A program made the position numbers and the translations under genes. A stretch of 64,000 nt of DNA from Actinomycetes bacterium (GTDB taxonomy: Bacteria > Actinomycetota > Thermoleophilia > RBG-16-64-13), in NCBI GenBank assembly GCA_024637035.1, contig JAGXFW010000012.1:1-64000 (forward strand), in the 5' to 3' direction. This document shows, piece by piece, positions 1 to 1,007 of the stretch; position 1 is the first letter of the stretch; each line of letters starts with the position of its first letter. Under the pieces are notes generated by a model that searched no databases, had not been told where the DNA came from, and saw only the letters and a program-made list of their open reading frames with translations.

Positions 1-1007
1 ACTTTGCTGTCGCCCTAACCACCCGCTACCCAGCAGGGCAGATAGTAGAAGTCGCTCATCTCGGCTACGGAGGCGGAGATCATGGCGAGTTCAGGCGCGC
101 CCACCGGAGCTGTGGCGTACGTCATGTCGAAGGTGGTGGTGGAGCTGCCGTAGATGACGGGGGCGCCGACGGCGGTGGCTTGGGAGAGGACGATGGACGC
201 CAACACCTCGGCGTTGTGCGTCACCAGCGTGCCGGACATGCTTATGGGACTCGACGCTCCCGCCATGGCCATAGACACCATGTTGACCGCGATGCCGTGC
301 TTCGCGCCCCCCATGATCGCGTCGACCGCGCCCGTGTGGAGCTGCAGGGGGCTCGTGGGACAGATGGTGAGGGAGAAGAGCGGGCGCTCCCGCAGCTTGT
401 CCCGTCCTCCGGCCACCGCGGCACCCATCTCCACCAGCATCTCCACGTGTTCCGCGTTGTTCGCGCTCAGGTGGATGTGCTTGGTCGTGTTGCGGAAGCT
501 GGTGTCGAGCACGTAGATGTCGTGGGCGTGATCCGGCGCGTCGTTCGGCGCGAGGGCGCGCTCGTACGTGTCCATCATGTCCATGGCGTCGCAGAGCCGG
601 GCGCTGTCCGCCAGGTCTTGCAGGGTCGAGTCGCGCAGCTGGCCGGTCTCGTGGTCTACTACCTTGGTGCCCTCGCCGAAGTTGGTGTAGCCGACCACGC
701 GGCCGCCCATGAGGAAGTCGTGTTCCCCGTCGCGGGACGCGAGTAGGATCTTGCCGGGAGCCGACTCGATGGCGTCTTCGACCACGGAACGGGGGAAGCG
801 GACGGCGCCGGTCGCCCGGTCCACCGTGCATCCCGCCTGGTCGAGGACGTCGTGGGCCTCGTCGCCCGCGACTTTGACTCCCACCTCTTCCAGTATCTCC
901 AGGGTGGCCTCGTGGATGGCTTCTCGTCCGTGTTGACCGAGCATCTCGAAGCGTAGGTTCGGTACTCCGCCGGGGTCGTCGGTACGGGCCTTGGTCCTGA
1001 AGCTCAT
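1..1007 (-). CDS. mttB: Trimethylamine:corrinoid methyltransferase, MttB family, with in-frame amber codon (putative pyrrolysine) at 15-17; 3' end beyond window
   Basis: 330 aa ORF with MttB-family sequence (LRFEMLGQHGREAIHEATLEILEEVGVKV...STTTFDMTYATAPVGAPELAMISASVAEMSDFYYLPCWVAGG). Terminating triplet is TAG (15-17 = cta on +). Frame stays open beyond it as G-D-S-K to the window edge. Start overlaps mtbB TGA (ATGA). Confidence 0.9.

Follow-up and report, generated by a model that had tools for sequence, protein, structure and literature searches.

An actinomycete mtbB-mttB operon with in-frame TAG codons at the pyrrolysine sites, in a genome with PylRS, PylB and PylC and no detectable PylD

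The mtbB-mttB locus

The window, i.e., the whole stretch of 64,000 nucleotides that was analyzed, starts at base 1 of contig C28 of an actinomycete draft genome (source genome, G000; 3.57 Mb in 34 contigs). Two consecutive genes for Pyl-type methyltransferases were identified at its beginning, each with TAG at the pyrrolysine (Pyl) site as the initial annotation had noted, and they overlap by four bases (ATGA). The features of the locus are as follows.

1 to 141, no strand assigned: sequence shared exactly with the beginning of contig C30, which opens inside a second mttB gene at the same base
3 to 1007, minus strand: mttB, trimethylamine:corrinoid methyltransferase, first 335 codons (PF06253, TIGR02369, 78% identical full-length homologue)
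15 to 17, minus strand: in-frame TAG at the Pyl site, mttB codon 331 (sequence; 7xcl column via full-length paralogue)
1004 to 2416, minus strand: mtbB, dimethylamine:corrinoid methyltransferase, complete (PF09505, 666 bits over 2-462 of 463; TIGR02368, 529 bits)
1255 to 1354, minus strand: PYLIS_2 (RF02509) match starting at the mtbB TAG (Rfam, 87 bits, cut-off 36)
1352 to 1354, minus strand: in-frame TAG at the Pyl site, mtbB codon 355 (open reading frame lists with and without TAG readthrough)

The TAG of mttB is preceded by ...DFYYLPCWVAGG and followed by GDSK up to the contig edge, a description from the initial annotation that was confirmed in both the ORF lists and the sequence. Without readthrough, the ORF listed on the minus strand (15-1007) comprises 330 codons and ends at the TAG. 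The frame scored 196 bits against MTTB (PF06253) and 444.5 bits against the NCBIfam model trimeth_pyl (TIGR02369, a pyrrolysine-type equivalog), matching model positions 2-318 of 469 with the remainder off the contig; because this copy is a fragment, the full-length cut-off of 525 was not to be expected. When the full-length mttB product of contig C33 was aligned with the solved MttB structure 7xcl, the non-standard residue X of the latter fell in the TAG column. The nearest full-length homologues, G011:C11:73944 (78% identity) and G015:C1:89079 (74%), both have a further 156 codons beyond the TAG, and in these relatives the condition that the initial annotation set for refutation, an early stop or loss of MttB homology past the edge, is thus not seen; the C28 copy ends at the contig edge. 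On these comparisons, the assignment of the C28 gene to the known Pyl-type MttB family appears sound.

The homology of mtbB to PF09505 and TIGR02368 is nearly full length and runs across its own TAG, which identifies the predicted product as a Pyl-type MtbB. The position of this TAG codon is the same in the C33 copy of mtbB and in the sister-species counterpart of that copy. The PYLIS_2 match may reflect coding conservation alone. A PYLIS_3 match was also obtained on an mttB gene of contig C33 that lacks the TAG (L025:1110-1209, minus strand; 62 bits, cut-off 38), and this model seems to score coding conservation and not Pyl decoding. Since PYLIS_3 also matches a non-Pyl mttB in the same genome, PYLIS matches were left out as proof of Pyl decoding. 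Divergent from mtbB, on the plus strand at positions 2602-9095 of the window, lie genes for a 3-hydroxyisobutyrate-dehydrogenase-like protein, an SDR protein, an FGGY kinase and an FAD-linked oxidase, together with two ETF genes; this cluster is kept beside mtbB in a sister genome (L026) with 75-97% identity.

The start of C28 is apparently an assembly break at a repeat. The mttB paralogues of C28 and C30 are 77.6% identical over 1010 bases, and an exact 141-base end common to two contigs would be expected from a de Bruijn break at a repeat. The ends of C14 and C32 also have 141 identical bases and those of C3, C18 and C30 have 130, in non-Pyl mttB genes. In total, 16 MttB-superfamily matches were found in the genome (on C3, C5, C10, C14, C18, C28, C30, C32 and C33), several of them at contig ends. 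Recent duplication or gene conversion among these genes probably broke the assembly.

The pyrrolysine system of the genome

On contig C33 the gene order in the direction of transcription is mtmC-like, mtmB, TMAO permease, mtbC-like, mtbB, mtbA-like and tRNA-Pyl (CUA), followed by pylSn, pylSc, pylB, pylC, SSS transporter, mttC-like and mttB. In the fold of tRNA-Pyl(CUA) (L024:8177-8248), the D stem has four pairs, the D loop five bases and the anticodon stem seven pairs. Both halves of pyrrolysyl-tRNA synthetase (PylRS), PylSn and PylSc, were found with scores of 292 and 101 bits, and PylB and PylC scored 444 and 331 bits; all four are above the curated cut-offs. The mtmB gene with a TAG scored 722 bits against PF05369. 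The initial annotation had suggested a search for helper genes beside the C28 mttB. Such genes are indeed encoded in the genome, with corrinoid proteins and an MtbA-like protein on C33 and three RamA-like C-terminal domains (on C17, C19 and C7), but all are away from the C28 mttB and none adjoins it.

A further candidate for a TAG-containing Pyl mttB, C32:72427, was rejected as non-Pyl, its TAG lying off the Pyl site and probably before the true start. Contig C3 carries an MtmB-family protein of 454 aa without an in-frame TAG (L017:1629-2990, plus strand; PF05369, 312 bits), preceded by a fragment of a non-Pyl mttB and by a corrinoid gene; its Pyl position is occupied by Ile, as judged by eye, and it is a predicted non-pyrrolysine MtmB.

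Decoding of TAG

Gene content, Pyl sites and their conservation were read directly from the genome sequences. In the source genome, TAG occupies the Pyl site of four genes for MttB and four for MtbB, and one mtmB also contains a TAG. The TAG codons of mttB, mtbB and mtmB, the three genes compared between the source genome and G011 of the same genus, are at identical positions. Chance mutation, which the initial annotation had judged very unlikely, is not tenable in light of this recurrence of TAG at the site and its retention in the sister species. In the same comparison, dN/dS was 0.12 for pylB, 0.17 for pylC, 0.18 for pylSc and 0.11 for pylSn, and 0.04-0.09 for the methyltransferases; purifying selection acts on the pyl genes.

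TAG terminates approximately 37% of the called genes in the source genome and 31-47% in Pyl-negative relatives, as estimated from crude gene calls and small samples, and its use as a stop is not depleted relative to these relatives. In most Pyl-containing archaea the TAG stop share is less than 6%, and it is 21% in Sifarchaeia (PMC9723677). Since TAG is a heavily used stop in the source genome, Pyl decoding would coexist with TAG termination. Within the pyl operon in L024, some TAGs are putative Pyl codons and others terminate genes, among them mtbC, mtbB and mtmB.

The TAGs inside the two-gene mtbB-mttB operon are almost certainly translated as pyrrolysine. A reading of them as mutations or normal stops in truncated genes, which the frequency of TAG among genuine stops might suggest, is scarcely credible, given that homology spans the TAG in the full-length copies of mttB, in four mtbB genes and in an mtmB, that the sister-species TAGs lie at identical codons under purifying selection, and that the genome has tRNA-Pyl and PylRS. 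From the characterized families we predict that the TAGs are decoded, that Pyl is incorporated and that the enzymes are active. The mtbB and mttB products would act as dimethylamine and trimethylamine:corrinoid methyltransferases in an anaerobic methylamine pathway, with the UAG at the active-site position read by tRNA-Pyl(CUA) that PylSn and PylSc have charged. Methyl groups would pass from MttB and MtbB to corrinoid proteins, which the RamA-like proteins would keep reduced, and the MtbA-like protein would carry the methyl groups onward.

Distribution of pylD

PylD oxidizes the terminal amine of 3-methylornithyl-lysine, and ring closure follows (PMC11467909). Among 399 genomes of the class, pylC was found in 21, all within two families. 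PylS was above its cut-off in 21 genomes, and PylD was present in 18 of the 21: in 16 it was above the cut-off in one piece, in G059 it was above in two pieces, and in G049 it was split over two contigs. The pylC gene of G084 (84% complete) lies at a contig end. Among the 21 pylC-bearing genomes, pylD was undetected only in the source genome and in G011, which are 100% and 99% complete, respectively. The PylD model TIGR03911 had no match in the source genome, and in G011 it reached a score of only about 20 bits. A diverged or relocated PylD was considered and rejected, as a 15-member PylD profile used at a permissive cut-off gave only Rossmann background in both genomes, with scores no higher than about 25 bits near the NAD-binding core, as it did in the Pyl-negative G012; the same profile scored 338 bits in the pylD-bearing G020.

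In G015, G020 and G022, pylD lies directly 3' of pylC. In the source genome this slot is occupied by the SSS transporter gene, the product of which is 76% identical to the one encoded after pylD in G020, and in G011 by an EamA-type transporter gene and a small unassigned ORF. Slot contents vary between the lineages compared, and no replacement gene common to them was found in the slot. A PylC scan of metagenomes identified three further clusters without pylD, L141, L142 and L143. The first is at zero tree distance to G011. In L142 (PylC identity 63%) the PylC frame ends at about 7262 and mttC begins at about 7309; in L143 (57%) mttC lies about 115 bases past the aligned end of pylC. A PylB-PylC-PylSc tree placed the source genome, G011, L141 and L142 in one clade (support 100) and grouped L143 with the pylD-bearing G022 (support 86). 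This pattern fits one clade-level loss of pylD and a second loss or relocation in L143. The absence in the genus rests on two draft metagenome-assembled genomes, G000 and G011, which were covered as whole genomes; for L142 and L143 it covers the operon.

Probable completion of pyrrolysine without PylD

We regard it as probable that UAG is decoded in this actinomycete lineage as Pyl, or as a near variant of it, that PylB and PylC but not PylD take part in the synthesis, and that an unrelated enzyme or an altered route finishes the amino acid. Because PylB and PylC are present and PylD is undetectable, the last oxidation of Pyl synthesis would most likely be carried out by an unrelated enzyme encoded outside the operon. 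The residues of the PylRS amino-acid pocket, at positions that we take from the M. mazei enzyme, are those of the pylD-bearing relatives; an altered substrate pocket in the pylD-less genus was therefore rejected. Low dN/dS, the kept TAG codons and this same pocket favor a functional system that uses the same amino acid, which in turn points to an unrelated enzyme or changed route for the last oxidation; no candidate for such an enzyme emerged.

It is possible, though unlikely, that the Pyl system is ordinary and complete and that pylD was lost in assembly or binning, for example on another replicon. Both genomes are drafts, the source assembly is broken at mttB repeats, and L143, the second candidate loss, could represent mere relocation. 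However, the six-frame profile search was negative in genomes of such completeness, and the slot without pylD lies inside unbroken contigs in the source genome, G011, L142 and L143.

The missing last enzyme of the synthesis would also be accounted for if the system were decaying after the loss of pylD, with TAG genes becoming pseudogenes, or if it relied on imported Pyl or a precursor, and the dN/dS values of pylC and pylSc (0.17-0.18) do exceed those of the methyltransferases. This is nonetheless improbable: none of the pyl genes is disrupted, their dN/dS values lie far under 1, the TAG sites are unchanged, and the loss of pylD is older than the split from L142. Import of finished Pyl would, moreover, remove selection on pylB and pylC.

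It is a little less probable again that UAG specifies another amino acid, e.g., a variant or the product of PylC in unoxidized form. The retention of pylB and pylC without pylD could be read in this way, as could changes at two otherwise near-invariant residues in the family of the source genome. At PylC residue 93, Asp is replaced by His in the source genome, G011, L142, L143 and G015; at PylB residue 206, Leu is replaced by His in the source genome, G011, L142, L143 and G022 and by Tyr in G015. These were the candidates in a search for sequence changes unique to pylD-less PylB or PylC, and they were set aside as weak because they do not track the loss of pylD exactly, being also present in pylD-bearing relatives. 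The identical PylRS pocket and the ordinary methyltransferases likewise argue against another amino acid. In characterized Pyl methyltransferases, the pyrroline ring has been proposed as the catalytic group.

Host range and implications

In the open-access literature, to which the search was confined and beyond which earlier reports may exist, Actinobacteria were unmentioned in the Pyl reviews of 2024 that were searched and in a Pyl survey, and no paper on Pyl in the phylum was found. The absence of pylD at the level of a genus suggests a variant Pyl system, a suggestion that draws its strength from two draft genomes and two further operons. In the Pyl pathway as described, PylD acts last. A lineage without PylD in which selection maintains the synthetase, the tRNA, PylB, PylC and nine or more Pyl genes makes the assumption of a three-enzyme pathway directly testable. 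From such a lineage a new enzyme could come to light, or a variant form of the 22nd amino acid, of use in genetic code expansion, and annotation that requires the full pyl gene set would wrongly label such genomes incomplete.

Comparison with known systems

The C28 mttB product resembles the MttB of structures 7xcl and 7xcm (PMC9842639) in belonging to the TIGR02369 family and in having a UAG-encoded residue at the same aligned position; it differs in that its gene is interrupted by the end of the contig, the host is an actinomycete and TAG is still a frequent stop. The described bacterial Pyl cluster has the order pylSn-pylSc-pylB-pylC-pylD (PMC3941956), and the source genome has tRNA-Pyl followed by pylSn-pylSc-pylB-pylC in the same order, but no pylD in the cluster or, as far as detected, in the genome. 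The Pyl clusters of G015, G020 and G022, from the same family, share the gene order and a Trp in the PylSc motif W-x-G-W-G with the source genome and differ from it in keeping pylD after pylC. In PylSc from L024 (6885-7769, minus strand), L105, L106, L107 and L108, this Trp lies in W-x-G-W-G-F/L-G, and Leu is found instead in D. hafniense and the other family. Non-pyrrolysine members of the MttB superfamily, such as the glycine betaine methyltransferase MtgB, also match PF06253 and are represented by about a dozen copies or fragments in the source genome; an ordinary residue occupies the site in these members, in contrast to the TAG of the C28 mttB.
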